64,000 bases of DNA from a virus: positions 1-64,000 of the IMG/VR virus record IMGVR_UViG_3300029914_000002, one strand, 5' to 3'. Below the pieces are notes generated by a model. The model ran no database searches. It was not told the DNA's origin and was given only the letters and a program-made list of their open reading frames with translations. How positions within the stretch are numbered: position 1 is the stretch's first letter; every line of letters begins with the position of its first letter. Below, piece after piece: positions 1-62,610 of this stretch. The position numbers and the translations under genes were made by a program.

Positions 1-321
1 TATGAGTATCCGTTTGAGTGTTTTAAATATAGTGTTTTATTGTTAATTATTTAGCATGTGTTACTTGTCAACCATCTCTTTATTAGTTAACTACGTACAA
101 CTCTCAATTTTAACTTGGGGATTAATTAAAACATAAGAAACAACTCCATAGTAGTTGATCAGAACAATCAACCACGTATGCTTTATTTTAGTCTATCCTA
201 ATTGATGACCCATACAATCAAATTTTATAACTATATAAATAACAAGACATTACTAATATTAAATAGATAAAGCGAATCAACATAAATATATATATTAAGA
301 TATCCAAACGGATACTCATAT
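1..321. repeat. Inverted-repeat-bounded noncoding segment
   Basis: Bases 1-16 (TATGAGTATCCGTTTG) are the exact reverse complement of bases 306-321. The interior has no convincing gene. It shows further pairing: GTTGAT/ATCAAC around 156-174, and AGCATGTG near 53 with CACGTATGCT near 172. A structured RNA closed by a 16-bp helix, or a DNA inverted repeat, would both fit. It abuts the broken 5' end of an RK-tag gene. The left arm starts at the window edge, so its full length is unknown. Confidence 0.4.
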
Positions 322-499
322 ATCTTTTTATGATGATTTTTTTAAAAAATATAACACGTATACGATAGTTCAAATTTTAAATAATGGTATTACATTTGGA
401 CTAGGAATTAAAGAGATAGGTGGTTATTACTCATCAAATTATTTCATAACTTTAAAAGAATATAGAAAATTAAAACTTCAAAAATTAGAATTGTTATGA
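299..499 (+). pseudogene. 5'-truncated RK-tag small protein
   Basis: An open frame without a start codon that ends in the shared C-terminal tail (ITLKEYRKLKLQKLELL). Upstream the frame closes at a TAA inside the inverted-repeat segment 1-321. The SH3/KOW-like N-terminal half seen in sister genes (MKxGDKVxC) is missing. It appears to have lost its 5' end where the inverted repeat begins. Its stop overlaps the next start as ATGA. Confidence 0.5.
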
Positions 500-743
500 T
501 AACTAATATAAATAAATATGATAAAGTAGTATATATTTTGGTCATGATGGTAAAATTAGTCAGTCTAAATTTATCTATGGTAATATTTATACAGTAACAG
601 GCTACTTTCGATCTTATATACCAGAATTGTCTTATATAACTACAGATGAAATAGAAAATTTTTATATTTATCTTAATTTTTTTATTACATTAAAAGAATA
701 TAGAAAATTAAAACTTCAAAAATTAGAATTATGTTTAGAGTAG
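496..743 (+). pseudogene. RK-tag small protein with a one-base frameshift
   Basis: The frame starts MITNINKYDKVVYI. After the T-run near 538-541 the sense continues in another frame (GHDGKISQSKF...) and ends in FITLKEYRKLKLQKLELCLE before TAG. Adding one T to the run (TTTT to TTTTT) restores a single ~82-residue protein. This is either a sequencing error or a real frameshift. The tail matches its neighbours. The stop is TAG and overlaps the next gene's start. Confidence 0.5.
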
Positions 744-940
744 GAGAAAAAATAGTTTATATAAAGCAATCATATACTGGACTTAAATTAGCATCAATTC
801 ATATTATAAAAGATATTAGATTTGATACTAGTATATCATTAGAAGATTCTTATAAAAATTGGTGGTTTTCATCCGAATGTTTTATATCACTATCTGAATA
901 TCGAAAACAAAAACTTAATGAATTAAAAAAAATATCATAA
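731..940 (+). CDS. Small RK-tag protein, KOW/SH3-like
   Basis: 69 residues. It starts MFRVGEKIVYIKQ, matching the xxGDKVVCI start of its sister genes, which suggests a small beta-barrel of the SH3/KOW type. It ends in the shared tail SEYRKQKLNELKK. It overlaps the upstream gene by 13 bases, so translation is probably coupled. Function is unknown. Confidence 0.75.
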   Translation: MFRVGEKIVYIKQSYTGLKLASIHIIKDIRFDTSISLEDSYKNWWFSSECFISLSEYRKQKLNELKKIS

Positions 941-966
941 TATTTTTTTATTCAAAATTAATTTCA

Positions 967-974
967 TATATTTG
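967..974 (+). promoter_or_regulatory. Possible Bacteroidetes -7 element
   Basis: TATATTTG fits the TAnnTTTG -7 consensus and lies 32 bases before the start codon at 1006. No good upstream TTTG is present at the right distance, so support is weak. Confidence 0.35.
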
Positions 975-1005
975 CACATTAAATGTTTAACTAAATAATT
1001 ATAAT

Positions 1006-2067
1006 ATGATAGATAAAAATATTTGTATACCTGGCAACATATTTGTTGTAAATAACAAAGTTTCAAAAGTAAATAATCAATATAATGATTATTATAATCA
1101 AAAAGACTCATTAGGATTAAATGCTTATATTCATATGAAAGATGGAATAGATTATTCTGGTTATAACATGATTGAAATTCCATCAGGTACAAAAATTGAA
1201 ATAATTAAATTTAAAAATGCAACAGCATTTTTTAAAATAATAAGTGAGCCTAATAATATTTATTCTGCATATTGGTCTCCATTTAAAGTTAAAGTTGATA
1301 AAATTGAAGGTCAAGAAATTAGTGAACCTGAAGTTATACCAACTAGATATAAAATCTTCTATAAAGGAAAAGCTCACAAGCCAAAATATTTCAATGATCT
1401 TGGTAAAGTTAAAGCATCATTACTTATTACAATTGGATATTATGAAAATCAATATGAAATGTTCCAAAAATATATTGATCGTAATCCAGAATTAGAAGAC
1501 TCACAAATTCCAGAATGGTGTCAATCTGCGAATGAAACATTTGATAGAGATGATTGTAAATATCTTGAAATTATGTCATACGTTAATGGTGATAACAAAC
1601 ATCCTATCAAATTTGATTTTGATATGCTTAAATATTATGATGATTCAATGAGATTGATTAATGTCACTGCTCAGTTTGGCAACGCAGCAAGAGAAGTATT
1701 CAAAAATGTAATGAATACAAAAGAATATTCTTATATGTTAGTTTATTATCCTTATGAATATCGTAATCCTAATAATTTTGATGTAAGTTATGGCTATAAA
1801 AGTAGTAATTTTGATTTTAGTGAATTGAAAGAAGATCAAAGAATTAAAGACATTTTAAAAGAATCTGGGATCAAAGGAACAAAAAAATCTACCAAATTTG
1901 GTAAAACTGCAATAGCTTTTAAAACTCTTGATGATCTTAAACAAGTTATGTTAAGGCTAGAACCAAAAGAATATTTTATTCTTGATTGTGACGGTGATCA
2001 ATTAATTGAAAAAAATACAAGATTTATTAAATTAATTATGCTTCAAGAAGAAAATTTTGATGAATAA
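1006..2067 (+). CDS. Phage protein of unknown function, 353 aa
   Basis: One of the longer proteins in the left part and not an obvious member of either small-protein family. It is soluble, with no signal peptide or membrane segment. Residues 30-110 are beta-rich. The C-terminal part carries Lys/Glu-rich helices and the strand-like YFILDCDGDQLI near residues 325-335. It begins after a possible -7 element and is followed three bases later by an RK-tag gene. I do not recognise a family. Confidence 0.85.
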   Translation: MIDKNICIPGNIFVVNNKVSKVNNQYNDYYNQKDSLGLNAYIHMKDGIDYSGYNMIEIPSGTKIEIIKFKNATAFFKIISEPNNIYSAYWSPFKVKVDKIEGQEISEPEVIPTRYKIFYKGKAHKPKYFNDLGKVKASLLITIGYYENQYEMFQKYIDRNPELEDSQIPEWCQSANETFDRDDCKYLEIMSYVNGDNKHPIKFDFDMLKYYDDSMRLINVTAQFGNAAREVFKNVMNTKEYSYMLVYYPYEYRNPNNFDVSYGYKSSNFDFSELKEDQRIKDILKESGIKGTKKSTKFGKTAIAFKTLDDLKQVMLRLEPKEYFILDCDGDQLIEKNTRFIKLIMLQEENFDE

Positions 2068-2070
2068 TAT

Positions 2071-3391: not shown

Positions 3392-3721
3392 ATGACTGTA
3401 TTTTATACATATTTATTTGGTGTGATAGTAGTATTTATTCTAATTATAAATATTCATATATTAGATGAAAAAACAAAATATAAAGATGATGATAGAGATT
3501 TATCTATAAAATACTATATATTATTTTATATTTTTAATATATTTTGTTATTTATTTTTAAATGTAATACGTGAAAAAAGAAAAATAAATTATTATAAATA
3601 TTATATAAAATGTTTTGATGATAATAGAATATATTTTGAATTATCATTTAGTTTAGAAATTGAAATCAAAAAAAGAAATAAAATAATTAGATATTTAAAA
3701 ATTAAACAATTAAAAAAATAA
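3392..3721 (+). CDS. Two-pass membrane protein, paralogue of the next gene
   Basis: 109 residues. Membrane segments lie near residues 3-25 and 43-62, separated by a charged loop containing LDEKTKYKDDDRDLS. The C-terminal part is Tyr/Lys-rich and ends RYLKIKQLKK, a relative of the RK tag. It is about 45% identical by eye to the gene at 3741, indicating tandem duplication. Probably sits in the host inner membrane. Function unknown. Confidence 0.75.
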   Translation: MTVFYTYLFGVIVVFILIINIHILDEKTKYKDDDRDLSIKYYILFYIFNIFCYLFLNVIREKRKINYYKYYIKCFDDNRIYFELSFSLEIEIKKRNKIIRYLKIKQLKK

Positions 3722-3740: not shown

Positions 3741-4106
3741 ATGATAATAGCAGTAAAAGTGTATCAAATTATTTTATTTATGATATTAATTGCAATTATT
3801 TATAAAATTGTTCTGGTATTAGATGAAAAAACAAAATTTCCTGATGATCATAGAAAAATATCTTTTAAATATTCTATATTTTTTTATATTTTTAATGCTT
3901 TTTGCTTTCTATTTTTAAATACTATAAGAGAAAATAGAAAAAATGATTATTATAAATATTACGTAAAATATTATAAAAAATATAAAAAATCACTTGATTT
4001 TTTAACTAAATATTCTATATATGATGATTGTAATGCAATAAATTATAATATTAAAACTTATAATAAAATACTTAGATATTTAAAAATTAAACAATTAAAA
4101 AAATAA
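3741..4106 (+). CDS. Two-pass membrane protein, paralogue of the previous gene
   Basis: 121 residues with membrane segments near 8-28 and 48-64. The loop LDEKTKFPDDHRKIS and the tail ILRYLKIKQLKK match the upstream paralogue. The nucleotide stretch after both stops (taatcattatataaac) is also duplicated, so the copied unit included the intergenic spacer. Confidence 0.75.
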   Translation: MIIAVKVYQIILFMILIAIIYKIVLVLDEKTKFPDDHRKISFKYSIFFYIFNAFCFLFLNTIRENRKNDYYKYYVKYYKKYKKSLDFLTKYSIYDDCNAINYNIKTYNKILRYLKIKQLKK

Positions 4107-4599: not shown

Positions 4600-4926
4600 A
4601 TGATAATGAAAAACGTCAAAGATGATTTAGAAAAAGATAAATTATTTATATTAATTGACAACAAGCTTGATGTTACTTATGGAGGAGTTCAAGGTGCTCA
4701 CGCTTCATGCCAATGGTTACTTGATCATAAATAGGTGCAAACCTGGAATAATCAATACTTAATTTTTCTATCTGCAGAACTTGAAAAATGGATATTTAAG
4801 TTAACTCTTAAAAATATAGATTTCACAGTGTTCTATGAACCTGATTTAGATAATAAACCAACTGCATTAGCAGTACATGGCAATGATTCTCTATTTCGTA
4901 ATTTAAAACTTTGGGGTGCTTTATAA
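4600..4926 (+). CDS. PTH2-like peptidyl-tRNA hydrolase with in-frame TAG (codon 45)
   Basis: Reading from ATG 4600 gives FILIDNKLDVTYGGVQGAHA, matching the start of the PTH2 family (a hydrophobic strand, then a Gly/Ala helix carrying the HA pair). After HK comes TAG at 4732-4734, then the same frame continues for 63 codons (VQTWNNQYLIFLSAELEKW...YEPDLDNKPTALAV), again PTH2-like. PTH2 enzymes free tRNA from stalled peptidyl-tRNA. Only readthrough of TAG gives a full protein of 108 residues. The CUA-anticodon tRNA starts 22 bases after the stop. The alternative is a gene broken by a nonsense mutation, or a separate GTG start at 4735. Confidence 0.65.
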
Positions 4927-4938
4927 GCACCCCGATTT
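4913..4938 (+). terminator. Hairpin terminator overlapping the PTH2-like stop codon
   Basis: GGGGTGCTT (4913-4921) pairs with AAGCACCCC (4925-4933), followed by GATTTT. The stop codon is inside the loop. Confidence 0.6.
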
Positions 4939-4948
4939 TAATAAAAAT

Positions 4949-5019
4949 GCTCATTTAGTCCAGTGATAGGGCGGTAGCCTCTAAAACTACCTACATCGGT
5001 TTGAATCCGATAGTGAGCA
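4949..5019 (+). tRNA. tRNA with CUA anticodon (amber suppressor)
   Basis: Acceptor GCTCATT pairs with AGTGAGC (one G-U). The D stem is GTCC/GGGC. The anticodon stem is GTAGC/ACTAC (C-A at the loop end) with loop CTCTAAA, so U33, anticodon CUA, A37. The T stem is ATCGG/CCGAT with loop TTTGAAT (C56 is U). The discriminator is A. CCA is not encoded, so a CCA-adding enzyme is needed, and a phage-encoded one lies at 38270. CUA reads UAG. An alternative 9-nt loop with anticodon AAA is less likely because it breaks the U33 rule. Confidence 0.7.
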
Positions 5020-5052
5020 CAAATATATTTTTCATAAGGTATATTTATTTTT

Positions 5053-5096: not shown

Positions 5097-5128
5097 TTTG
5101 CACATTCAAAATTTAATAGTTATATTTG
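5097..5128 (+). promoter_or_regulatory. Bacteroidetes-type promoter
   Basis: TTTG at 5097-5100, 20 nt, TATATTTG at 5121-5128. A near-perfect match placed just after a terminator, 25 bases before the ATG at 5153. It opens the long run of RK-tag genes from 5153 to 9742. Confidence 0.75.
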
Positions 5129-5152
5129 TATCTTATTTTAAAACTTATAAAA

Positions 5153-5578
5153 ATGATTGTAAATATTGTAAATTATGTAATGAGTAGTTCATATATATCA
5201 TTAAATACTGATTATAATATTTTTTATAATAATAATGATTCTATTAAAATATTAGATTTTAATAAGATGCTTGATATTACTATATCAATGAAAATAAATA
5301 ATATAAATTTAGGTGGACTATTATGGTTCGTTAAAGAAATTCGTATGTATGAAATATGTCAATTAAAAGAATGTAAAGATTTTACTGATATGTTGAGAAT
5401 GATTGGTATAATAATTGGCACAAATACTATATCTATAAGTGATGAAATATATTCAATAAAAGGTTTAACTTTATTAGAATTAACTCACATAATTGATAAT
5501 AATCCTGATAATTCATTTCAGAAATTACGAACATATATTAGAAAGAAAAAACTTGAAAAAATAATGATAGATGCTTAA
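5153..5578 (+). CDS. RK-tag protein of unknown function
   Basis: 141 residues from MIVNIVNYVMSS. I chose ATG 5153 because the promoter's -7 box (5121-5128) overlaps any earlier start. It ends TYIRKKKLEKIMIDA. The body (GLLWFVKEIRMYEICQLKECKDFTDMLRMIG and LTLLELTHIIDNN) is helical and resembles the gene at 6780, so the two form a subfamily distinct from the KOW-like one. Confidence 0.75.
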   Translation: MIVNIVNYVMSSSYISLNTDYNIFYNNNDSIKILDFNKMLDITISMKINNINLGGLLWFVKEIRMYEICQLKECKDFTDMLRMIGIIIGTNTISISDEIYSIKGLTLLELTHIIDNNPDNSFQKLRTYIRKKKLEKIMIDA

Positions 5579-5825
5579 CGTTGGAGACAAAATTTATTTT
5601 ATTAAATCTTTATGATACAATATAGATTTACCATCAAATAAAGAATTAACAATCTTACATATATTTGATTGCCGTAATAATATTGTAATAGGAGGAGTTA
5701 CTACTGTAATTAGAATAAAAGAAGCTATAATTGTTGATGATTATTATTCAGAACAATTTTTATCATTGAAAGATTATAGAAAAGAAAAACTAAAAAAATT
5801 ATCAAATATATGCAAGCTTGGGTAA
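5571..5825 (+). pseudogene. RK-tag KOW-like gene interrupted by TGA
   Basis: Starts MLNVGDKIYFIKSL, then TGA at 5613-5615 (codon 15). The same frame then continues YNIDLPSNKELTILHIFDCR and ends SLKDYRKEKLKKLSNICKLG before TAA. TGA is a normal stop elsewhere in the window, so this is most simply a nonsense mutation or base error. A Trp at this position would be chemically reasonable. Confidence 0.55.
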
Positions 5826-6064
5826 AAAAACATAATTCAACATTTTATTGTATTGATAACTATATAAAAAAAGATAATAAAAATTATAATCTTAAATCTT
5901 ATAAAATGGGTACATCTTTTGATAAATATACTAATTTTAGAATAATATACTATGATAGTAATATATCAAGACAAGTTTTTTTTTCAAATATAACATTATC
6001 TGCTAATGAATATAATAATTTTATAAGAAAAACAAAAATTGAAAAATTATCAAAATATGAATGA
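5810..6064 (+). CDS. RK-tag protein of unknown function
   Basis: 84 residues. It begins MQAWVKKHNSTFYCIDNYIKKDNKNY and ends NFIRKTKIEKLSKYE. The middle is beta-rich with alternating polar and aromatic residues. It is paralogous to the gene at 6057 (shared IDYIIKKDNEKYxxxSY pattern). It overlaps the upstream gene by 16 bases. Confidence 0.7.
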   Translation: MQAWVKKHNSTFYCIDNYIKKDNKNYNLKSYKMGTSFDKYTNFRIIYYDSNISRQVFFSNITLSANEYNNFIRKTKIEKLSKYE

Positions 6065-6320
6065 TTGGATAAATAAATGGATAGAAAGAAAAAATGAATT
6101 ACCATTATTTTTTGATTATATTATTAAAAAAGATAATGAAAAATATGAATTTTATTCATATATGAAATTAACAACTTATGAATTTAGCATAAAAGTTAAA
6201 TTGTCATATTATATTATAAATGTAGATACTATGTTTTCAGATGAAAAAGAAATATCATTTAATTCATTTAATAATTATCTTAGAAAAATTAAATTAGAAA
6301 AATTAAATGAAAATATCTAA
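6057..6320 (+). CDS. RK-tag protein, paralogue of the previous gene
   Basis: 87 residues from MNDWINKWIERKNELPLFF. I preferred ATG 6057 over an upstream TTG because it lines up with the paralogue's MQAWVKK start. The body contains DYIIKKDNEKYEFYSYMK. The tail is NYLRKIKLEKLNENI. Function unknown. Confidence 0.7.
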   Translation: MNDWINKWIERKNELPLFFDYIIKKDNEKYEFYSYMKLTTYEFSIKVKLSYYIINVDTMFSDEKEISFNSFNNYLRKIKLEKLNENI

Positions 6321-6594: not shown

Positions 6595-6783
6595 TGAAGA
6601 ATTTATTCTTAATAAAAAATATACTATTGACGATATAAAATATCATATATCAATAATGAAATTAATATTGATATTACATATTTAATAGCTGATAATAAAT
6701 ATAAACAATTTAATTATTATATTTATATTTTAGAATACGTAAAATATATAAGAAAATTTAAATTATCTAAAATAATATTATGA
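6548..6783 (+). pseudogene. RK-tag gene with a frameshift near 6655
   Basis: Frame one gives MKITKKDMMIYILNHDEEFI...DDIKYHIS. After about 6655 the sense continues in another frame as NNEINIDITYLIADNKYKQF and ends KYIRKFKLSKIIL at TGA 6781-6783. A single-base change rejoins the halves into one ~77-residue tagged protein. Confidence 0.5.
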
Positions 6784-7208
6784 TAAACGTAAAGTTATAT
6801 AATAAAGAATTATTTACTAAACATAATTTGTTTATTGAAGTCTGTATTCCTAATGATAAATATAATTCTATATCTCATTTATTTGATGTAATAATAAATA
6901 AATTAATAGAGTATAAAAATAGAGATGTTTATTTTGCTTCTATTCGTAGTTTAATAGGTATAATGCTAGTTGAAATGAAACATGTAGATGAATTGGAATT
7001 AGAAGATTTTTTTAGAATTTTTCAATATAGATTTGATGTGCTTGATAATAAAATAGATGTGTTTAATGGATGGTATCATTTTATAAATCAAGATATAGAA
7101 GATATTAAAGGAATAACTTTACATCAATTTAATATGATGATTAATGATGATAAATATATTAAAAAATATTTTAGAATGATTAAACTTCAAAAATTATCAA
7201 AATTATGA
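6780..7208 (+). CDS. RK-tag protein, paralogue of the 5153 gene
   Basis: 142 residues. ASIRSLIGIMLVEMKHVDELELEDFFRIF and GITLHQFNMMINDDKYIKKYF match the layout of the 5153 product (an iron-free helical body, then a 'GLTLxxxxxxIDxN' stretch). The tail is YFRMIKLQKLSKL. Start and stop overlap neighbours as ATGA. Function unknown. Confidence 0.75.
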   Translation: MINVKLYNKELFTKHNLFIEVCIPNDKYNSISHLFDVIINKLIEYKNRDVYFASIRSLIGIMLVEMKHVDELELEDFFRIFQYRFDVLDNKIDVFNGWYHFINQDIEDIKGITLHQFNMMINDDKYIKKYFRMIKLQKLSKL

Positions 7209-7576
7209 TAGTAGAATATTATAATATAGATTTTTCAATAAATTATCAATCTGAAGAAATAGATTCAAATAGAATATATAATATTATTAAAAATTATATA
7301 AATAATTATATAATGATATATAAAAATAATCCTCATATTTATGTAGGTAAGGATTGTTTTGATTTTATTTTATATTCCGATAAATTTCATCTTATTTCTT
7401 ACAAATCATCAAAACCTTATATCGGAATATTATATGACTGTTATCTTTATATAAACACAGATTTACAAGAAGGGGATTTTTATTTATCTAATAATAAAAT
7501 AGATTTTAAACAATATAATAGAAAATTAAAAATAGAAAAAATAAATAATTATTATAATGAAAATAGTAAAATTTAA
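7205..7576 (+). CDS. RK-tag protein of unknown function
   Basis: 123 residues, Tyr/Asn/Ile-rich, MIVEYYNIDFSINYQSEEID. It ends QYNRKLKIEKINNYYNENSKI, where the tag is followed by 11 extra residues that overlap the next gene's start at 7557. Confidence 0.65.
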   Translation: MIVEYYNIDFSINYQSEEIDSNRIYNIIKNYINNYIMIYKNNPHIYVGKDCFDFILYSDKFHLISYKSSKPYIGILYDCYLYINTDLQEGDFYLSNNKIDFKQYNRKLKIEKINNYYNENSKI

Positions 7577-7900
7577 TGTTGAAATATTTGATAATTATAT
7601 ATTAAAAACTACTAGGATTTTTACGAATTATTATATAAAGAAATATCTAAAAATTTTAATGATTATGGAGTTGCTGTTGTTTTTAGTCGTAAAATGATGG
7701 ATAATTTAAATTATCTTAATTGTAATTATAAAATTCATATTCAATATCAAGTAAATGATTATATAAACATAAATGATGTTTTTATATATCCATATTATGC
7801 AGCCAATGAATGTGATATTATATTAACAGATTTTGATTTTATTAAATATTATAGAAAACAAAAACTTAAAGAAATATGTTTAAACCAGGAGATAGAGTAG
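7557..7900 (+). pseudogene. RK-tag gene with a frameshift near 7612
   Basis: MKIVKFNVEIFDNYILKTT starts at 7557. After the sequence actactaggattttt the sense passes to another frame: DFYELLYKEISKNF...FSRKMMDNLNYLNCNYK, ending KYYRKQKLKEICLNQEIE at TAG. The in-frame ATG at 7694 could restart translation of the second half. The ATG of the 7876 gene lies inside the tail. Confidence 0.5.
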
Positions 7901-8118
7901 TTTGCATAAATGATGAAAATAATTGTGATCCAAATATAAATCTAATTAAATATAATATTTATATTGTAAAAGAGTTACATGAATATACCAATAATAGAAT
8001 AATATTAGAATATCATGAAAATAGTTTATATTATAATACTAGATTTATATTATTAAAAGAATATAGAAAAGAAAAACTCAAACAAATAGAATTATGTTCA
8101 AACCAGGAGATAAAGTAG
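7876..8118 (+). CDS. Small RK-tag protein, KOW/SH3-like
   Basis: 80 residues. MFKPGDRVVCINDENN is followed by LIKYNIYIVKELHEY, a beta-rich core, and LLKEYRKEKLKQIELCSNQEIK. It stops at TAG, which lies inside the next gene's GATAAAGTAG (DKV) codons. First of a tight run of seven tandem paralogues to 9742. Function unknown. Confidence 0.75.
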   Translation: MFKPGDRVVCINDENNCDPNINLIKYNIYIVKELHEYTNNRIILEYHENSLYYNTRFILLKEYRKEKLKQIELCSNQEIK

Positions 8119-8330
8119 TGTGTATTAATGATAAATATTTTTATAATGATAAATCTATAATAGAAATGATTAAATATAATATTTATACAATAAATAGAAT
8201 TGCAGAAATTTCAGGTAGCAATACAGATAGAGTTGTATTATATGAATGTAAACGTATGTATTTTTCACACAGATTCATATCATTAAAAGAATATAGAAAA
8301 CAAAAATTATTAGAAATATGTTCAAAGTAG
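8094..8330 (+). CDS. Small RK-tag protein, KOW/SH3-like
   Basis: 78 residues, MFKPGDKVVCINDKYFYNDK then MIKYNIYTINRIAEI and SLKEYRKQKLLEICSK. It overlaps the previous gene by 25 bases and the next by 13, and ends at TAG. The shared MIKYNIYTI segment groups it with the 7876 and 8318 copies. Confidence 0.75.
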   Translation: MFKPGDKVVCINDKYFYNDKSIIEMIKYNIYTINRIAEISGSNTDRVVLYECKRMYFSHRFISLKEYRKQKLLEICSK

Positions 8331-8584
8331 GAGATAAAGTAGTTTGTATTGATGTTAAAAAATATAATAATAATAATTATAATGTAAACCTAATTAAATA
8401 TAATATTTATACAATTAATATAGATTTTTCAGTTTTTGATAGATCAAGTTTTGGTAGATCAAGAGTTGAAATAAAAGAATGTTGTAATGAGACATTTTAT
8501 TCAGAGAGATTTATATTATTAAAAGAATATAGAAAACAAAAACTCAAACAAATAGAATTATGTTCAAACCAGGAGATAAAGTAG
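8318..8584 (+). CDS. Small RK-tag protein, KOW/SH3-like
   Basis: 88 residues, MFKVGDKVVCIDVKKY, LIKYNIYTINIDFSV, LLKEYRKQKLKQIELCSNQEIK. It ends at TAG. It is the closest paralogue of 7876; their 3' ends are nearly identical in DNA, which indicates recent duplication or gene conversion. Confidence 0.75.
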   Translation: MFKVGDKVVCIDVKKYNNNNYNVNLIKYNIYTINIDFSVFDRSSFGRSRVEIKECCNETFYSERFILLKEYRKQKLKQIELCSNQEIK

Positions 8585-8799
8585 TTTGCATTGATCAACA
8601 ATATAGAAAAAAATACAATTTACCTAATACAATATTAGAAGTTACAGAATATAAAGATATAAGATATAAAAAATTATTTAGTGAAAATTTTATTATTTGT
8701 TTCAAAGATATAAAATATGGATATAATTATAATTGTTTTATGCTATTAAAAGAATATCGTAAATTAAAATTATTAAAATTAAATAAAAATGATAAGTGA
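8560..8799 (+). CDS. Small RK-tag protein, KOW/SH3-like
   Basis: 79 residues, MFKPGDKVVCIDQQYRKKYNLPNTILEVTEY to LLKEYRKLKLLKLNKNDK. One Arg of the tag is encoded by CGT where neighbours use AGA, so the peptide is kept while the DNA drifts. Confidence 0.75.
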   Translation: MFKPGDKVVCIDQQYRKKYNLPNTILEVTEYKDIRYKKLFSENFIICFKDIKYGYNYNCFMLLKEYRKLKLLKLNKNDK

Positions 8800-9070
8800 A
8801 TCAAGTCTTGTTAATTATATAGAAAATCTAAATCTTAGAAAAACCCATGAATGTTTTGATACTAACTATATAATTGATAATAATTATATAATATGCATTG
8901 AATCATCTACTAATGTTTTTTTCATAGATAAAAAAATGAATTCGAACCTGTATATTTTCATAATTAATATTGAAAAATTAAAAGATATTTATTATAAAAA
9001 AACTGGTAAAAATATAGAAATTTTAATGAGAAAAGAAAAACTAAAAAAATTAGAAGAATGTTCAAGATAA
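8789..9070 (+). CDS. RK-tag protein with a different body
   Basis: 93 residues, MISESSLVNYIENLNLRKTHECFDTNYIID. The N-terminal two-thirds are unlike the KOW-like copies on either side, yet the tail LMRKEKLKKLEECSR is kept. A good example of one tail on unrelated bodies. Confidence 0.7.
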   Translation: MISESSLVNYIENLNLRKTHECFDTNYIIDNNYIICIESSTNVFFIDKKMNSNLYIFIINIEKLKDIYYKKTGKNIEILMRKEKLKKLEECSR

Positions 9071-9282
9071 GAGATAGAGTAGTTTGCATTGATAATTCTT
9101 ATTTATATGATATAAATCTATTACAATTAAATAATATTTATATAATTGAAGATATTTTTAGTTATGATACAGAAAATAATTATATTGGTATGATATTAGA
9201 AAAATATAATTTTGAATTTAATTCTAATAGATTTATATCATTAAAAGAATATAGAAAACAAAAAATATTAAAATTATGTTAA
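9058..9282 (+). CDS. Small RK-tag protein, KOW/SH3-like
   Basis: 74 residues, MFKIRDRVVCIDNSYLYDI, then LLQLNNIYIIEDIFSY and SLKEYRKQKILKLC. The family's conserved Gly in MKxGDKV is Arg here. It shares DNSYL with the 9276 copy. Confidence 0.75.
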   Translation: MFKIRDRVVCIDNSYLYDINLLQLNNIYIIEDIFSYDTENNYIGMILEKYNFEFNSNRFISLKEYRKQKILKLC

Positions 9283-9521
9283 AACCAGGAGATAAAGTAA
9301 TTTGTATTGATAATTCTTATTTAGATGATAATAGTATGAGAAAATTATTATTAAACCATATTTATATAATTAAACTATGCTTTACATATCAATCAGATCA
9401 TTTTAATTATATTATATTAGAAAATGATTTTGAATATCATGAAAATAGATTTATAACATTAAAAGAATATAGAAAACAAAAACTATTAAAATTATGTTCA
9501 AACCAGGAGATAAGTTATTAG
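9276..9521 (+). CDS. Small RK-tag protein, KOW/SH3-like
   Basis: 81 residues, MLKPGDKVICIDNSYLDDN, LLLNHIYIIKLCFTY, TLKEYRKQKLLKLCSNQEISY. It ends at TAG. A tandem paralogue of the 9058 gene. Function unknown. Confidence 0.75.
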   Translation: MLKPGDKVICIDNSYLDDNSMRKLLLNHIYIIKLCFTYQSDHFNYIILENDFEYHENRFITLKEYRKQKLLKLCSNQEISY

Positions 9522-9742
9522 AAATATCAACTAACAAAATTTTCACATTCTGTGATTATATAAAAACTATATCATATTCATCAAATTATAATGATATGAT
9601 AGTGAATGATTATGATTATGAAAATGGTTTAATATCAATCAATGAAGATGCAGAAAATTATCATAGAATTAATAAATATTTATCTATTAAAGAATGTAGA
9701 AAAGAAAAACTTAAAAAATTATATAAAGATTTTAATATTTAA
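9494..9742 (+). CDS. Small RK-tag protein, last of the tandem run
   Basis: 82 residues, MFKPGDKLLEISTNKIFTFCDYIKT to SIKECRKEKLKKLYKDFNI. The usual VVCID is replaced by LLEIS. The tail is kept although noncoding DNA follows. Confidence 0.7.
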   Translation: MFKPGDKLLEISTNKIFTFCDYIKTISYSSNYNDMIVNDYDYENGLISINEDAENYHRINKYLSIKECRKEKLKKLYKDFNI

Positions 9743-10149: not shown

Positions 10150-10550
10150 AGTTCTTTGATGTCATGATAAAATGGTTGTTAGTTAAAAACTTAACTAACG
10201 TAAAATCATAAAAGTAATAAGTTTGATTAAAAATCAAACTGAAACTTTTAATCGTTATACATATCAATAATATTGATTACAGTAAACATAGAACGATTAA
10301 TACACTTTTAAATACATCTTAACAACGGACTATAATAAGTCTTAAAAATGGTTGTTCGTTATGTAGTTTAAATAATTAAAAGCGACTACGATTTCTTTAA
10401 ATTATTAAAGAATAGTGTGTTCGGATAAAGAATTTCATCAAACGAAATTCAAACGTCACAGCAAGTACAAATTTGTATAAGTTTAAGTTGACGGTATACC
10501 TATTAATATATCAACCATGTGGATTAATCATGATATGAAAGTTATCATAA
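10150..10550 (+). ncRNA. Large structured noncoding RNA candidate
   Basis: About 400 bases without a gene. Clear hairpins: GTTAGTTAA/TTAACTAAC (10180-10200), AGTTTGATT/AATCAAACT (10220-10240), GAATTTC/GAAATTC (10431-10451). Longer pairs: TTAATCGTT (~10249) with AACGATTAA (~10292), and ATGATAA (~10165) with TTATCAT (~10541) closing the whole. The size and many helices recall ornate phage RNAs such as GOLLD or ROOL, but I see no match to a known family. Confidence 0.55.
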
Positions 10551-10618
10551 AAAAAGATTTAGTTGGAAGTAAATTAAGAAAAAGAAAATTATTAAAAATA
10601 AATGAAAATAGGAGATAA
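10535..10618 (+). CDS. Minimal RK-tag peptide, 27 aa
   Basis: MKVIIKKDLVGSKLRKRKLLKINENRR, so almost nothing but the tag. It directly follows the structured RNA and overlaps its closing helix. Its 3' end overlaps the start of the 10602 gene by 17 bases. It is either a remnant of a tagged gene whose body was replaced by the RNA, or a leader peptide. Confidence 0.45.
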   Translation: MKVIIKKDLVGSKLRKRKLLKINENRR

Positions 10619-10826
10619 AGTTTTATTTACTGATTATTTTTATGAACATCATAAATATATAACAGATAATAGATATAATATTTTTACAATCAAAGATTAT
10701 TTTAGCGATAATTTCACCATTATTTCTTTATATGAACTTCCAATGTATTATTTTGAACCAAAAAATTTAATAACAGTATCAGAAATTAGAAAAAAAAAAT
10801 TAAAAAAATTAAAAATATATGAATAA
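10602..10826 (+). CDS. Small RK-tag protein, KOW/SH3-like
   Basis: 74 residues, MKIGDKVLFTDYFYEHHKYITDNRYNIFTIKDYF to SEIRKKKLKKLKIYE. It overlaps the adenylyltransferase gene at 10819 by 8 bases. Function unknown. Confidence 0.75.
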   Translation: MKIGDKVLFTDYFYEHHKYITDNRYNIFTIKDYFSDNFTIISLYELPMYYFEPKNLITVSEIRKKKLKKLKIYE

Positions 10827-51048: not shown

Positions 51049-51185
51049 GATAATGATAATAATCGTAAGATTATTAAATTACAAGAATAAATATGATAAA
51101 TGAAAATTTATTTTTTCTAAGCTGAGAAGCTAAAAGAACTGATAAAAGATTTTTTTTAATACTCATTTCAAGTAAGAGTACTTGA
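51049..51185 (+). ncRNA. 3' part of array unit 2
   Basis: ATTACAAGAATAAATATGAT matches the ATTACAA-x-A-G-TA-x-ATAT segment of the other units. Then AGCT-GAGA-AGCT (51120-51131) and AAAAGAACTGATAAAAG, then TCAAGTA-AGAG-TACTTGA (51168-51185). Same order as units 1 and 3. Confidence 0.6.
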
Positions 51186-51436
51186 AAAAAATGTAGAAAA
51201 AATTCAAAAATATTTGGTAAAACAAAAAACTTTTTGTAATTTTGTACTTAATAAATAATAATCATCTAATTGAAACTAGTTTATTGCTTCCATGTGATAC
51301 TTCAATTTATGATTAGTAAGATTATTATTAATTTAAAAAAGTATAAAAATTCAAAAATATTTGGTAAAACAAAAAACTTTTTGTAAATTTGGACTACAAT
51401 AATGAAACAAATCAAATTTCAGATTGAAGCAATAAA

Positions 51437-52080: not shown

Positions 52081-52660
52081 GTTCTTTGTAAAATTGAAAA
52101 TATTTGGCTGTCTGTAGTCATAAATAAACTACGAAAGTAGTATAAAGTGAGTTATAGTTGTTTCTATAACTTGCGGTATTAAATGTGCAGTTGATTTTAT
52201 TTTTTCGGAAATAAAATTAATTGTAAACAATAATACTTGAGCAGACAATCAGGATATCATTAAACCTTGATTATCGAGGGTAACACTGTAGAGAAAGTGG
52301 TTTAATGCAAAGGCTATGTGGGTAGTCTGAGTGAGATGGGAACATCAATAAGAATAACCTGAAGGATTATTGCAAGAAATACGATTTCCAGTTGTGTAAT
52401 TGCGTTATCCAATATAAAAGTTGACTTAAAACCGAAAGGTAAATTAGATTGTAATACAATGTACAGGTGGTGCTGTAATTAAGGTTACCTTAACATTACC
52501 AAGTGTTACGAGAGTATCTTAGTTGACTTAAAATATGGAGGTAGGGATATCTCAGAGAGTAGTTTAGTATAGCTCAGTTCAAAAGATTGAGAAGCTGGTT
52601 GTCGAACCACTACTTTCATCATCCACAAAACAAACTTTAACTGCAAATTTAATGCAAATT
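52081..52660 (+). ncRNA. Large structured RNA with a tRNA-like 3' part
   Basis: Less AT-rich than its surroundings. TGTCTG (~52110) pairs with CAGACA (~52241). Hairpins ACTAC-GAAA-GTAGT, AGTTATAG/CTATAACT, TTTATTTT-TTCGG-AAATAAA, GATG-GGAA-CATC, AATAACC-TGAA-GGATTATT, TAAGG-TTA-CCTTA. GNRA and UUCG loops are typical of folded RNA. Near 52555-52615, TAGTATAGCTCAGTTC, CTCA/TGAG and TGGTT-GTCG-AACCA look like a tRNA D arm and T arm without an anticodon arm. Confidence 0.6.
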
Positions 52661-52985
52661 AAAATAAACAAATAAAGGAAAAGAGTTCGACTGTTGTTAG
52701 TGATAGGTGACTACTAGTTATGAGAAGCAATTCGTCGTAGCCGTGAAAGACCCCAAGTCCAACATGATTTTTAAGAAAGTTCTCTAAATCCGCAAGATTT
52801 AATCTGGAAGGCATTCTAGATGAGTAATGATTATTAAGAGAGTAATTAACAACAAAAGGAGTGGTGAATCTAATTGACCGTCATTGGAGGAGTACCAATT
52901 CAAAAGATTGGTGGAAAAGAAGCAGAAAAAATAATAGTTTCTAAAGTTCTTCTCTATAATGCTGTATTCTCAAGCAATATAAAAT
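52661..52985 (+). ncRNA. Structured RNA upstream of the locus terminator
   Basis: About 320 bases without a gene, continuing the G/C-richer composition. GTGACTACTAGTTATGAGAA and later AATCCGCAAGATTTAATCTG suggest hairpins. Two near-repeats, ACCAATTCAAAAGATTGGTGG near 52890 and AGTTCAAAAGATTGAG near 52580, share TTCAAAAGATT. Probably the 3' part of the RNA starting at 52081. Confidence 0.45.
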
Positions 52986-53071: not shown

Positions 53072-53383
53072 TTATAAATTGAATTTGTTTGCATCTTGTT
53101 TTAATTTATAATCTTTCATAAATTCTTCAACTTCGTCGTCAATAACTATATATTCTCTGTTTTTTAAACATAATCTATCATCCACGTACTTTCCTTTTTG
53201 ATCTAGATACACTCCAACATCACCATTACAGGAACCAAATGGATGAGTAAGAGTACCAGTTAAATACTCATCATCCTCTTTAAATTTGATTTTAGTGCCT
53301 ACTGGATATTTAGATCTACCTGCTAATATAACATCATCATCTAACATTGTAAATTGATGCTCATTAAATTTTAGTATTTTCAT
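53072..53383 (-). CDS. MKY/KFN-family protein, KOW-like
   Basis: 103 residues from MKILKFNEHQFTMLDDDVILAGRSKYPVGTKIKFKEDDEY. ATG 53383 is taken since MKILKFNE is the family-like start. The body resembles a KOW/SH3 barrel (VGTKIKF...GDVGVYLD). End KLKQDANKFNL. Confidence 0.75.
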   Translation of the reverse strand: MKILKFNEHQFTMLDDDVILAGRSKYPVGTKIKFKEDDEYLTGTLTHPFGSCNGDVGVYLDQKGKYVDDRLCLKNREYIVIDDEVEEFMKDYKLKQDANKFNL

Positions 53384-53387
53384 ATTA

Positions 53388-53837
53388 CTATATATTAAAT
53401 TTTTTAGCATTAAATATATCAGGATGATTTATCTCTAACCATTTGTTATATTCATCTAAATTGTTATAAGGTAGGTTATTACCTTCACATACTAATATTT
53501 CTAATGTCTCTGGTAATAATGGTAACTCAGATAAATTATTATTACTACAATTTAATGTCTTTAATGAATATGGTAATGTCGGCAATTCTTTTAAATTATT
53601 AGAATAGCAAAATATTTTTTTTATTGAGTGCGGTAAAGTAGGTAACTCACGCAAAACATTATTAAAACAAGATAATATCTCTAATGTCTCTGGTAATGTT
53701 GGCAATTCTTTTAAATTATTATTATAGCAATATAATTCTGTTGTTGTATCTGGAATATTTGATATTATAAATAATCCTTTATCATTTAATGTCAATACAT
53801 TATCCATTATATGTTCAAATGTTTTTATATATTTCAT
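53388..53837 (-). CDS. MKY/KFN leucine-rich-repeat protein
   Basis: 149 residues. MKYIKTFEHIMDNVLTLND; five LPxLP repeats (LKELPTLPETLEILSCFNNV, LSELPLLPETLEILVCEGNN); end HPDIFNAKKFNI. A paralogue of the 41496 product 12 kb away, including the NNLPYNxLxEY motif after the repeats. Confidence 0.85.
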   Translation of the reverse strand: MKYIKTFEHIMDNVLTLNDKGLFIISNIPDTTTELYCYNNNLKELPTLPETLEILSCFNNVLRELPTLPHSIKKIFCYSNNLKELPTLPYSLKTLNCSNNNLSELPLLPETLEILVCEGNNLPYNNLDEYNKWLEINHPDIFNAKKFNI

Positions 53838-54406
53838 ATATTAAATTTATTTGTATTTTTAACCATTAAATAATTTGAATATTCTTCTGGATATTCTTCT
53901 ATAATTTCTTTTCTATATGCAGGAGGTAAATAATCTATAAATGTATGGTCAATATCATCAGTTATATTCCAATCTGCTCCATTTTCAATTAAAAACTTAG
54001 TTATTTTTAATGCTTTTTTATCTCTATAATTATAATTAGAATTCACAATTAATGCAGTTTCACTATTATTATTTATTTTATTTATATCTGCTCCTGCTGT
54101 TATTAAATCTTGAATCATTTCTTCTTTTTTATTTCGTACTACTAATATCAATGGAGTATTTCCAAAATTATCAGTAGTATTAACATCAGCTCCTGAATCA
54201 ATTAAAATTTTAAATATTTGATATAACCCATACCTTATAGTGATTATTAAAGGAGTATCTCCATTACTATTTTTAATATTAAGATTTATATTTGGGATTT
54301 TAGATATCAATTCTTTAATTTTAGGTGAATCAATTTCATAAATATATTTAAATATATCTTTTTCATCATAAAATTTTGTTAATTCAAATTGTTTTATATA
54401 TTTCAT
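53834..54406 (-). CDS. MKY/KFN ankyrin-repeat protein
   Basis: 190 residues. MKYIKQFELTKFYDEKDIF; ankyrin units LNIKNSNGDTPLIITIRYGL, ILIDSGADVNTTDNFGNTPL, DLITAGADINKINNNSETAL, FLIENGADWNITDDIDH; end YPEEYSNYLMVKNTNKFNI. The clearest ankyrin protein in the window. Confidence 0.9.
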   Translation of the reverse strand: MKYIKQFELTKFYDEKDIFKYIYEIDSPKIKELISKIPNINLNIKNSNGDTPLIITIRYGLYQIFKILIDSGADVNTTDNFGNTPLILVVRNKKEEMIQDLITAGADINKINNNSETALIVNSNYNYRDKKALKITKFLIENGADWNITDDIDHTFIDYLPPAYRKEIIEEYPEEYSNYLMVKNTNKFNI

Positions 54407-54726
54407 AAGTTAAATTTATTTGCTTGTAATTCTAATTCTAATTCTTCTTTAGTTCTAGCATATTTTTCAACATCACTTGAATTTAACTCTATATGATAAA
54501 CATAATATTTTCCTTTTTTATCAAAACATTCAATTAGTTCATCTGGTACATATTCATATCCAAACTTAATCCAAATAGGATTGGTTCCTCTTATATCAAT
54601 AATTTTACAAATATTATTTTTAAAAAAAACTGATATCCCTTGGTTTCTAGGTTCAAAGTTAATTATAGCATAATCTCCTTTTTTTATATCTCTATTTAAT
54701 CTTTCAAATGTTTTTAAATATTTCAT
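54403..54726 (-). CDS. MKY/KFN-family protein, KOW-like
   Basis: 107 residues. MKYLKTFERLNRDIKKGDYAIINFEPRNQG, then ICKIIDIRGTNPIWIKFGYEYVPDELI; end ARTKEELELELQANKFNL. The GxYIP/YVPDE element is shared with 33636 and 34348. Confidence 0.75.
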   Translation of the reverse strand: MKYLKTFERLNRDIKKGDYAIINFEPRNQGISVFFKNNICKIIDIRGTNPIWIKFGYEYVPDELIECFDKKGKYYVYHIELNSSDVEKYARTKEELELELQANKFNL

Positions 54727-55166
54727 ATGTTAAATTTATCAGTATTTTTATTAAGTTTAAGTTCTTTAACTATTTCTGGATATTTTTTATCAAGCCATTT
54801 TTTCAATTTATCATCTGTAATTAAATCATAAAATGTTTCACCTTTATATTTTATATTATAATCAATTCCGTTATCTAATAATAATTGAATCATTTTCTTT
54901 TTTTCATATATATCTCCTTCACCTGTTATAACAAAAAATAAAACTGTTTGATATTTTAATATGTCATTTAATTTATCAATATAATCAGGTAATAAATATA
55001 TAAATCTTTTAAGATTACCATCATAAGCGGATTGCATCAGGGCATTATAACCCATTCGTATACCCATTCGTATTAAATCATTTTCTACTGCTGAATTCCA
55101 CATATCTAAATCATGAGATTTAAATACGTTAGTAAACCTATTTTCAAATGTTTTTAAATATTTCAT
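54723..55166 (-). CDS. MKY/KFN-family protein, ankyrin-like
   Basis: 147 residues. MKYLKTFENRFTNVFKSHDLDMWN; RMGYNALMQSAYDGNLKRFI and LLLDNGIDYNIKYKGETFYD are ankyrin-like; end KLNKNTDKFNI. First gene of the five-gene minus-strand chain. Confidence 0.75.
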   Translation of the reverse strand: MKYLKTFENRFTNVFKSHDLDMWNSAVENDLIRMGIRMGYNALMQSAYDGNLKRFIYLLPDYIDKLNDILKYQTVLFFVITGEGDIYEKKKMIQLLLDNGIDYNIKYKGETFYDLITDDKLKKWLDKKYPEIVKELKLNKNTDKFNI

Positions 55167-55280: not shown

Positions 55281-55613
55281 ATGAATGTAACAGATGTAAT
55301 GTTAAATGTTATTTCTTTATTTGATAAAGAAGACAAAGTAAATTCAGATTATTATCATAATGGTAGTGAAACTGGACCAATATTAGAATATGATGTTAGT
55401 TATGATAATGTTATTGAAGCTACATATGGATGGAATGATTATGAAGAAGGAGAAACTACACAAATAAAAATTTATTTCACAACAGATGATATAAAAGTAG
55501 AAAAAAATATCTCTGGTTCAAGTGTGATGTGTGATGACCCATATGATGAAGATTCGAATTTTGTATTTTCAAATGAGATAGATTTTATAACTTGGTTAAA
55601 AGAAGAAATCTAA
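55281..55613 (+). CDS. Hypothetical acidic protein
   Basis: 110 residues from MNVTDVMLNVISLFDKEDKVNSDYYHNGS. Acidic (DYEEGETTQIKIYFTTDD), ending FITWLKEEI. Overlaps the next gene at TAATG. Not recognised. Confidence 0.7.
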   Translation: MNVTDVMLNVISLFDKEDKVNSDYYHNGSETGPILEYDVSYDNVIEATYGWNDYEEGETTQIKIYFTTDDIKVEKNISGSSVMCDDPYDEDSNFVFSNEIDFITWLKEEI

Positions 55614-55903
55614 TGAATTACGATGAAACATTTGCTAAAAGAGATAAATTAATAATCAAAGCAGATTCTATAACAGAAAATTATTTAGAACTTGCTACAG
55701 AATTATTAGAAAAATCTAATAATTTTTTACATACTTCTAGAATAACTCACACTGATATTGATTCTGATGGCATAACATTTGAATTTTGGATAAATGATTA
55801 TGATTTTCCTCAAGGAAAACGTCAAATTCTTATAACTAAAGAAATTTTAGATAAAAATATTAATTCTTTTTTAAGAAAGAAAAAACTAAAATTATTAAAA
55901 TGA
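55613..55903 (+). CDS. RK-tag protein
   Basis: 96 residues from MNYDETFAKRDKLIIKADSITENYLELATELL, ending SFLRKKKLKLLK. ATG 55613 overlaps the upstream stop (TAATG), which fixes the start. The body is unrelated to the KOW-like group. ATGA overlap with the next gene. Confidence 0.7.
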   Translation: MNYDETFAKRDKLIIKADSITENYLELATELLEKSNNFLHTSRITHTDIDSDGITFEFWINDYDFPQGKRQILITKEILDKNINSFLRKKKLKLLK

Positions 55904-56223
55904 ATAAGCCAGATAGAAATCAATATTATAAATTATACTCTACTGTTATAGTTTGTAATTCAGTTGGATCATCATTATGTAATAAATGTAAAAAAAACAA
56001 TCAAGAGTTTTCAGTTTTTCTTGGATCTGATACTAAACTTAGTACTTTATTTGGATATTATTGTAGTGATTGTTTACCATTACTTGTAAAAGAAGCAAAT
56101 ATTAAAGGTCAATATAATTTTGAAAAATATTACAATAACGCTTGTAAACGATATTATGAAGAATGTGTTCAATATGTAAGAAAAACAAAATTAGATAATC
56201 TAGGTAATATTATAAAAGAATAA
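55900..56223 (+). CDS. Zinc-finger RK-tag protein
   Basis: 107 residues. CNSVGSSLCNKCKKNNQEFS and FGYYCSDCLPLLV supply two CxxC pairs. The tail is QYVRKTKLDNLGNIIKE. Another unrelated body joined to the tag. Confidence 0.7.
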   Translation: MNKPDRNQYYKLYSTVIVCNSVGSSLCNKCKKNNQEFSVFLGSDTKLSTLFGYYCSDCLPLLVKEANIKGQYNFEKYYNNACKRYYEECVQYVRKTKLDNLGNIIKE

Positions 56224-61376: not shown

Positions 61377-61493
61377 CTACAAAAATCTGATATATAAAAA
61401 TATATAACAATTATTACCATTATATTGTAGTTAAATATTATTAAATATAAAACATATCAATCTAATATTTATATAAAGTAAAAATATAAAATT

Positions 61494-61697
61494 ATGGGAT
61501 TCAATAAAAGATTTATATCAAAAGATTCACTTAGAAACATTGCAAATTTAGATGATTATTTAAGTTTTTTTAATTATTTTAAAAGTGATGTAGTATTATT
61601 TGAAGATACATTCTCTCTTAATATTATGAAAGATTTAAAAAAATATAATATTACTGATAAATATGAAATATTAAATATAATGAATAAGTGCAAATGA
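61494..61697 (+). CDS. Hypothetical small protein
   Basis: 67 residues, MGFNKRFISKDSLRNIANLDDYLSFFNYFKSDVVLF, helical. ATGA overlap with the next gene. Not recognised. Confidence 0.65.
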   Translation: MGFNKRFISKDSLRNIANLDDYLSFFNYFKSDVVLFEDTFSLNIMKDLKKYNITDKYEILNIMNKCK

Positions 61698-61909
61698 AAT
61701 ATTTATGCAAAAAAACATACTCAAAAGAAATTATAGCTGGAAATTTTTATGATTATTATTTAACATCTACTAAAAATTATGTTAAAATTGAAGAGTTATA
61801 TTTCGTTGCTAATAATAATATGTTATCAGAGCCAAAAATTTATAAATATTTTTATACCGAAACAGAAATACGAAAAATAAAATTGGAAAAATTGAAAGAA
61901 TTTAAATAA
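61694..61909 (+). CDS. RK-tag protein, MKYLCKK subfamily
   Basis: 71 residues from MKYLCKKTYSKEIIAGNFYDYYLTSTKNYVKIEELYFV, ending TEIRKIKLEKLKEFK. ATG 61694 lies in the ATGA overlap. First of four paralogues; their starts (MKYLCKK-x-Y) are constant and their centres differ. Confidence 0.7.
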   Translation: MKYLCKKTYSKEIIAGNFYDYYLTSTKNYVKIEELYFVANNNMLSEPKIYKYFYTETEIRKIKLEKLKEFK

Positions 61910-61916
61910 TTTATTG

Positions 61917-61924
61917 TATCTTTG
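61917..61924 (+). promoter_or_regulatory. Possible -7 element
   Basis: TATCTTTG 19 bases before ATG 61943. No TTTG at the right upstream distance. Confidence 0.4.
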
Positions 61925-61942
61925 TTTCAAATAAGATAATTT

Positions 61943-62179
61943 ATGAGATATCTATGTAAAAAATATTATATTGATTTTATTGTAGGAGAATATTATTATT
62001 CTGATAATATATCATATAGAAATATTAACTATAATTATAAATATATTTTAATTAATAGCACTAAATTTATTTTAGATGATGATGACACTAGAATAGATCC
62101 AAAATTATATGAATATTTTAGTAATATTCAAGAACTACGAAAACTTAAATTAAAAAAATTAGATGAAATATCTATGTAA
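61943..62179 (+). CDS. RK-tag protein, MKYLCKK subfamily
   Basis: 78 residues, MRYLCKKYYIDFIVGEYYYSDNISYRNINYNYKYILINSTKF to ELRKLKLKKLDEISM. Nearly identical to the next gene over 55 residues, so a recent tandem duplication. Overlap of 17 bases. Confidence 0.75.
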   Translation: MRYLCKKYYIDFIVGEYYYSDNISYRNINYNYKYILINSTKFILDDDDTRIDPKLYEYFSNIQELRKLKLKKLDEISM

Positions 62180-62417
62180 AAAAGCATATAATGAAAATTT
62201 TATTGTAGGAAAGTATTATTATTCTGATAATAATATTCATTCTGATAATATGTCATATAGAAATATTAACTATAATTATAAATATATTTTAATTAATAGC
62301 ACTAAATTTATTTTAGATAATAACACTATAATAGATCCAAAATTATATGAATATTTTAGTAATATTCAAGAACTACGAAAACTTAAATTAAAAAAGTTAT
62401 ATGAAATATCTATGTAA
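62163..62417 (+). CDS. RK-tag protein, MKYLCKK subfamily
   Basis: 84 residues, MKYLCKKAYNENFIVGKYYYSDNNIHSDNMSYRN. It has a six-residue insertion (NNIHSD) against the previous copy, itself a small repeat of YYSDN. Tail ELRKLKLKKLYEISM. Confidence 0.75.
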   Translation: MKYLCKKAYNENFIVGKYYYSDNNIHSDNMSYRNINYNYKYILINSTKFILDNNTIIDPKLYEYFSNIQELRKLKLKKLYEISM

Positions 62418-62610
62418 AAAATCATATCCAGATTTTATTGTAGGAAAATATTATTATAGTGAGAACTATGATTATGAAGGTTTTATAATAATAAATCAAC
62501 ATATGTTTTTTGACTTTCCTGAAATTAAAACAGGAAATATTCATGACTATTTTGAAACAATGCCAGAAATTAGAAGAAAAAAGCTAGCAAAATTACAAGA
62601 ATTCAAATAA
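62401..62610 (+). CDS. RK-tag protein, MKYLCKK subfamily
   Basis: 69 residues, MKYLCKKSYPDFIVGKYYYSENYDYEGFIIIN, tail PEIRRKKLAKLQEFK. Last of the four copies. The tail is kept though no gene follows on this strand. Confidence 0.75.
   Translation: MKYLCKKSYPDFIVGKYYYSENYDYEGFIIINQHMFFDFPEIKTGNIHDYFETMPEIRRKKLAKLQEFK

Follow-up and report, generated by a model that had tools for sequence, protein, structure and literature searches.

The question raised by the stretch of DNA considered here, i.e., the first 64 kb (the window) of the 216,921-base phage record IMGVR_UViG_3300029914_000002, with a guanine-plus-cytosine content of about 22%, is why so many of its small and otherwise different proteins share one short C-terminal peptide. 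A preliminary description, made from the letters of the window, had reported a tail R-K-x-K-L-x-K-L on more than 40 proteins and had suggested that it serves in sorting, packaging, RNA binding or degradation. Analysis of the window, of the full record, and of related phage genomes has led to the finding that the tail is conserved as a peptide, and points with some reserve to a modular helix by which early cytoplasmic proteins would dock to a common partner.

The core of the tail is R-x-x-K-[LI]-x-x-[LI], i.e., residues i, i+3, i+4 and i+7. The strict form R[KR].[KR][LI]..[LI] occurs near the end (last 30 residues) in 72 of the 405 genes of the record, as compared with a mean of 0.41 genes and a maximum of 3 in 500 shuffles of the C-termini, and outside the last 30 residues it matches only 4 more times across all proteins of the record. 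Most of the matches (68 of 76) sit 10 - 19 residues before the C-terminus; the full range of this distance is 9 - 28 residues, and the terminal residues vary. R..K...L, RK.....L and R...L..L were also among the top patterns when gapped C-terminal patterns were counted without supervision. A position-specific scoring matrix (PSSM) was applied with a cut-off that 0.2% of shuffled C-termini and 0.25% of internal segments attain. It identified 85 tailed genes of 405 in the record, 91 of 615 in the relative G008, and 34 of 238 in the relative G002; these 210 tailed genes were pooled for the comparisons that follow. Within the window there are 38 non-overlapping tailed genes, all on the plus strand, and a stop-to-stop scan added 5 open plus-strand frames with the tail and none on the minus strand. 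The total of 43 bears out the earlier count, and the position-weight scan recovered the tail at nearly all of the places first reported. Of the motif as first written, the R, K3, L4 and L7 core stands, but the second K is not invariant. Chance in an AT-rich genome is ruled out by the shuffles, the internal controls, and the tail-poor relatives G005 and G007 described below. An artefact of stop recoding, suspected from a tRNA with anticodon CUA, was likewise rejected: TAG ends only 7 of the 85 tailed genes of the record, and read-through extensions are at most 25 codons.

The DNA polymerase of the record has its nearest relatives in the annotated collection in "huge phage" genomes of 735 kb (54.6% identity) and 634 - 642 kb (41 - 43%). 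Mahaphage is the name given to the clade of the largest huge-phage genomes in their source paper, in which Bacteroidetes hosts were predicted for genomes >634 kb (PMC7162821). The comparison set consisted of the close IMG/VR relatives G008 (330 kb), G002, G006, G005 and G007, with the record itself as G000. The tail is found in G000 - G004, G006, G008 and some further contigs, and is nearly absent from G005 (1 of 113 genes) and G007 (2 of 241), both of which are placed inside the clade by their DNA polymerase. In each of ten more distant records a strict DNA form of the motif occurs once or not at all, and the 735-kb genome does not have it. No relatives of the tailed proteins were found in annotated phages or in bacterial genomes, and a literature search for a described phage tail of the R-x-x-K-L-x-x-L kind returned nothing relevant.

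A shared sequence of this sort might reflect the DNA and not the protein. It could be an A-rich leader that helps translation of the following gene, or a handle for recombination, and happen to be read through as peptide; 155 of the 210 tails overlap the downstream gene or lie within 30 bp of one, and A-rich upstream sequence is favoured in Bacteroidota (PMC6847099). The pattern of substitution argues otherwise. Codon usage for Arg, Lys and Leu in the tail equals the genome-wide proportions, and synonymous differences at identical residues are as frequent in tail as in body (0.41 vs 0.38 for Leu, 0.12 vs 0.11 for Lys, 0.10 vs 0.15 for Arg). In 68 orthologue pairs, identity in the core is 99% at R0, 79% at K1, 97% at K3, 88% at L4 and 78% at L7, as against 61% in the bodies, while positions 2, 5, 6, 8 and 9, which for the most part point to the opposite side of the helix, are 51 - 61% identical, like the bodies. 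Apparent losses of the tail between orthologues are mostly variants (RTSKLKKL, RINKLNEI, RIDKLNKI) that retain R, K, L and L/I. Moreover, at least 32 of the 210 tails have no close same-strand gene downstream, and R, K, L/I and L/I are intact in all of these. Because codon usage is that of the background, synonymous divergence is normal, and tails persist in genes with no close downstream neighbour on the strand, the tail is conserved as a peptide and not as a DNA leader; the DNA-level explanation is effectively refuted and retains almost no credibility. The preliminary description had held that conserved DNA with no synonymous change would undo its peptide tag, and the tag survives on that point. 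Of the three sites it had cited as lacking a following gene, 62610 does lack one on its strand, but strictly 2783 and 9742 do not, with genes 38 bp and 93 bp on, respectively.

On a helix projection the conserved residues fall at 0, 300, 40 and 340 degrees, i.e., on one face. AlphaFold2 models the product of the gene at 8318 - 8584 as an SH3-like barrel with a C-terminal helix at residues 68 - 85 (mean predicted local distance difference test score, pLDDT, of 84, and about 94 - 96 in the helix), and a second family as a helical mini-protein in which the tail ends the last helix, residues 35 - 59 (mean pLDDT 93.5). When the two families are compared with hhalign, just 13 tail columns align. The tail is thus predicted, with good model confidence, to form a C-terminal helix on two unrelated folds. 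A barrel was among the body types first proposed, and this one is supported by the model, with the helical mini-protein modelled in addition.

The tailed bodies fall into 76 clusters by blastp, but the KOW-like and LCKK families, with about 51 of 173 tailed bodies, belong to one SH3-like superfamily (hhalign E 2e-9). The earlier statement that the bodies are unrelated therefore holds between other groups, but not between the KOW-like and MKYLCKK proteins. Extended further, this relationship could mean that all tailed proteins descend from a single, very fast-evolving ancestral family, of which the tail is the most conserved part and has no separate function. Such a reading is already disfavoured and seems improbable, given that the SH3 barrel and the mini-protein align only over the tail, that Gp23-like, SNSSSSSF-family and P-loop ATPase-like bodies carry the tail too, and that some homologues of tailed bodies are without it (G007_112992, G007_43188, and the Gp23-type major capsid protein G007_67327). 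By these sequence comparisons, some homologous bodies have acquired the tail or have lost it. A tailed 284-residue protein (L007:1472-2326; positions 85472 - 86326 of the record) matches the C-terminal half of G007_67327 with 22% identity (E ~1e-7); the phage record itself yielded no capsid gene of full length. Searches of family libraries suggested no convincing function for the bodies of the tested tailed proteins of the window, or of larger tailed proteins, and fold searches of the PDB returned weak SH3 matches for the barrel (best E 0.09) and no meaningful match for the helical family.

The tail is also selective in the proteins that bear it. Membrane segments are predicted in 6 of 210 tailed proteins vs 170 of 1048 others (p 1e-8), and lipoprotein signals in none of the 210 vs 9 among the others; by these predictions, it is largely confined to soluble proteins of cytoplasmic type. 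Boxes of the TAnnTTTG type, the primary promoter of Bacteroidota (PMC6847099, PMC9723704), lie upstream of 28 of 72 tailed-gene operons, vs 8.5 in shuffled sequence, and the two-part form upstream of 18 vs 1.8. A T-rich ATATA element (TATATA-type) is not in excess before the tailed operons (13 of 72 vs 10.5 shuffled), but it precedes 16 of 35 operons encoding proteins of at least 400 residues (7.3 shuffled), including that of a 2152-residue gene, and 27 of 34 operons (8.5 shuffled) of a second class of proteins with shared ends. The latter have an MKYIKTFE-like start, which we take to resemble the T4 capsid-targeting sequence, and an NKFN[IL] end. Judged by these upstream elements, the tailed genes look early and the MKYIKTFE/NKFNL class late. 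Genes with both ends number 37 in the record and 48 in G008, and among their bodies are ankyrin, leucine-rich and SH3-like types, the last by weak links (E ~1e-3). Members in the window lie at 33328 - 34737, 40044 - 43857 and 53072 - 55166 on the minus strand and at 46864 - 47552 on the plus strand. The ends are retained at operon ends (33328, 47552, 53072), and in G006 the end of the second class reads NKYNI. The R-x-x-K-L tail and the MKYIKTFE/NKFNL tag are mutually exclusive, with 0 proteins carrying both in G000 vs 15.9 expected (p 1e-9).

Together, these findings lead to the proposal, considered probable by a modest measure, that the tail serves early cytoplasmic proteins as a modular helix for docking at their C-terminus. 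Were such a helix to dock to one common partner, a near-invariant R/K/L/L face across many bodies, and free variation at the other positions, would be expected. The one-sided R0/K3/L4/L7 face would bind that partner, which might be a structure made by the phage or a complex of the host (RNA polymerase or the ribosome, for example), and small, fast-changing early proteins would in this manner be delivered to the same place during host takeover. The address would be constant, and the bodies would have different tasks or would change in response to host defences. Several points weigh against the proposal. The tail is not essential for this type of phage, since the same-clade G005 and G007 are almost without it, and its recurrence is in part common descent, since the largest tailed block is one SH3-like superfamily. 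The helical conservation moment test is weak, with the largest moment near 100 - 110 degrees and a permutation p of 0.04. The PSSM was trained on motif-selected sequences, only three tail-less homologues have a clear end, the common partner is something that we infer, and the early timing of the tailed genes is read from promoter sequence only.

The alternatives differ in what the same helix would do. SH3/KOW-like bodies often bind RNA, and the net charge of the tail segment is +3.4 as compared with +0.5 in other C-termini, as might suit a basic helix that holds small proteins on RNA or DNA (the nucleoid, mRNA, or the ribosome) with no specific protein partner. Unspecific binding, however, would preserve charge and not particular residues on one face, whereas Arg is nearly always found at position 0 and Lys at position 3, and Leu/Ile is just as constant at positions 4 and 7; at the adjoining K1, by contrast, N, I, L or Y can also occur. 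The R/K/L/L face thus appears to fit protein docking better than RNA or DNA binding, and an affinity for nucleic acid as the tail's function is considered unlikely. It is an improbable suggestion, too, that the tail is a timed signal by which a host or phage protease removes early proteins: its C-terminal placement and the host-type promoters, which suggest early genes, are in keeping with this, but the tail, unlike ssrA-type degrons, is set at varying distances from a C-terminus whose final residues also differ, and no ClpP or Lon domain was found in the examined phage records, which are partial.

A tag for virion packaging or injection, like the T4 capsid-targeting sequence but C-terminal, would parallel the logic of the T4 internal proteins, in which diverse small bodies have only the targeting sequence in common (PMC3012670), and the resemblance of one tailed protein to half of a Gp23-type capsid protein agrees with it. 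It is nonetheless disfavoured, to the point of being quite improbable, because the tailed operons have an excess of host-type promoters and no excess of the element found before many large, virion-like operons. The MKYIKTFE/NKFNL class, which has that element, is the better packaging candidate. Of the functions first listed for the tail, then, sorting or docking is the part that holds up, packaging runs against the promoters, and the spread of 9 - 28 residues in the distance to the C-terminus makes degradation in the manner of ssrA unlikely.

If the docking proposal is true, dozens of orphan small phage proteins, with the tail on 15 - 20% of genes, become one question, namely the binding partner of the tail. 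Most small phage genes are without known function, and the shared tail would serve as bait for a host or phage hub. A wider scheme of two tags is put forward tentatively, and with somewhat more doubt than belief: an early repertoire of about 15 - 20% of genes, with dozens of unrelated bodies, would be addressed to one host-cell hub by a clade-specific C-terminal helix, and the second, exclusive end-tag would mark proteins with late-type promoters. If true, the second tag would open to experiment the way in which huge phages sort their proteins in time and space.

The tailed genes of the window are all on the plus strand and were located by PSSM scan unless otherwise stated. At the left end, an open frame without a normal start (299 - 499) has the tail RKLKLQKLELL at 464 - 499, and the open frame 525 - 743 has RKLKLQKLELCLE at 702 - 743 (stop-to-stop scan; PSSM 35.0 and 33.5, respectively). 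Tailed SH3-like genes follow at 731 - 940 (tail 902 - 940, RKQKLNELKKIS), 2071 - 2373 (tail 2335 - 2373), 2360 - 2593 (longest open reading frame from 2327; tail 2555 - 2593) and 2580 - 2783 (tail 2745 - 2783, RKRKLKKLKNLY). The tail RYLKIKQLKK is carried by a protein with predicted transmembrane segments (3392 - 3721) and by a protein resembling it (3741 - 4106). Further tailed genes lie at 5126 - 5578 (RKKKLEKIMIDA; the 230 bp downstream have no gene), 5810 - 6064 (RKTKIEKLSKYE), 6039 - 6320 (RKIKLEKLNENI), 6780 - 7208 (RMIKLQKLSKL), 7205 - 7576 (RKLKIEKINNYYNENSKI) and 7694 - 7900 (RKQKLKEICLNQEIE), and the open frame 5616 - 5825 has RKEKLKKLSNICKLG at 5778 - 5825 (stop-to-stop scan, PSSM 26.2). 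SH3-like genes occupy 7876 - 8118, 8094 - 8330, 8318 - 8584 (the modelled barrel), 8560 - 8799, 9058 - 9282 (RKQKILKLC), 9276 - 9521 and 9494 - 9742 (RKEKLKKLYKDFNI), with a different body, by clustering, at 8789 - 9070 (RKEKLKKLEECSR).

The short open frame 10487 - 10618 has RKRKLLKINENRR at 10577 - 10618 (stop-to-stop scan, PSSM 18.0), and a tailed SH3-like gene lies at 10602 - 10826. The frame at 13297 - 13506, to which a tail had been ascribed, has none; it is a truncated paralogue of 13833 - 14177, and a tail remnant, RRIKLENLNKI, survives just downstream in another frame (13584 - 13619, in the open frame 13467 - 13619; stop-to-stop scan). Next are an SH3-like gene at 13624 - 13845 (RIEKLKKICKI), another body type at 13833 - 14177 (RKEKLKKLEKL), a helical-looking protein, by sequence, at 16891 - 17169 (RKDKLKQLSKYYHYCNKINI), the paralogues 19033 - 19293 (RKLKIEELNDNRTR) and 19274 - 19549 (RKEKLEEINKNGKI; body clustering), and 22435 - 22656 (RKTKLEKINEL). 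The SH3-like gene at 23643 - 23879 has a promoter-like box upstream (TATCTTTG; promoter scan), and a protein with a zinc-ribbon-like start at 25099 - 25497 has a weak tail, RLKKLKILNLK. Two short genes (29954 - 30106 and 30186 - 30332) precede an SH3-like gene at 30316 - 30552. Body clustering was also applied to 55592 - 55903 (RKKKLKLLK) and to the Cys-rich protein at 55900 - 56223 (RKTKLDNLGNIIKE). Four LCKK proteins, at 61694 - 61909 (assigned to the SH3-like superfamily by hhalign), 61943 - 62179, 62163 - 62417 and 62401 - 62610, complete the set, the last with the following gene on the opposite strand.

Other features of the window are noted. A small reading frame in the region 4600 - 5020 has one in-frame TAG (4732 - 4734) and continues 63 codons beyond it, and the tRNA with anticodon CUA (4949 - 5020) lies 23 bp past its end; the protein resembles peptidyl-tRNA hydrolase by eye, with no match in Pfam, and a feedback on an amber suppressor is possible. 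A GOLLD RNA at 52555 - 52976 on the plus strand (278.9 bits) lies in a gene-poor stretch of about 49.2 - 53.0 kb. Beside it, at 49190 - 51420, are at least 8 repeats of about 100 nt that share AATATTTGGTAAAACAAAAAACTTTTTGTAA(T/A)TTTG and contain a TAnnTTTG-like box; they may represent host-type promoters, or else small RNAs, arranged in series. On the minus strand, 43876 - 45525 encodes a polyphosphate kinase 2 fused to an RNA-repair-type HAD domain.

Among known systems, ssrA/tmRNA and other C-degrons also place one C-terminal peptide on many proteins, but the phage tail, unlike ssrA-type C-degrons, is genome-encoded, stands at a variable distance from the end, and has no fixed final residues. 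Encapsulin cargo-loading peptides are short C-terminal tags on unrelated proteins; the phage tail differs from them in sequence, and the encapsulin shell family PF04454 had no match in six (partial) phage records. Microcompartment encapsulation peptides are short amphipathic end helices by which unrelated cargo proteins are all directed to a single structure (PMC11157265, PMC7221423). An amphipathic end helix on unrelated proteins is what the conservation pattern, AlphaFold2 and hhalign indicate for the phage tail as well, although its basic, near-invariant R/K/L/L face sets it apart, and the likeness is one of form. The T4 capsid-targeting sequence is N-terminal and acts in head assembly, whereas the phage tail is a C-terminal R-x-x-K-L-x-x-L helix, mostly 10 - 19 residues from the end, behind host-type promoters, and the tailed genes do not appear to be co-expressed with head genes, to judge from the late-type element, which stands near its shuffled level upstream of them; the MKYIKTFE class comes closer to the T4 sequence than does the tail. 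Nevertheless, the T4 internal proteins likewise have a short peptide in common on otherwise very diverse small phage proteins (PMC3012670), and by analogy they offer the closest known logic for the tail, from which it differs in position and in promoter type.

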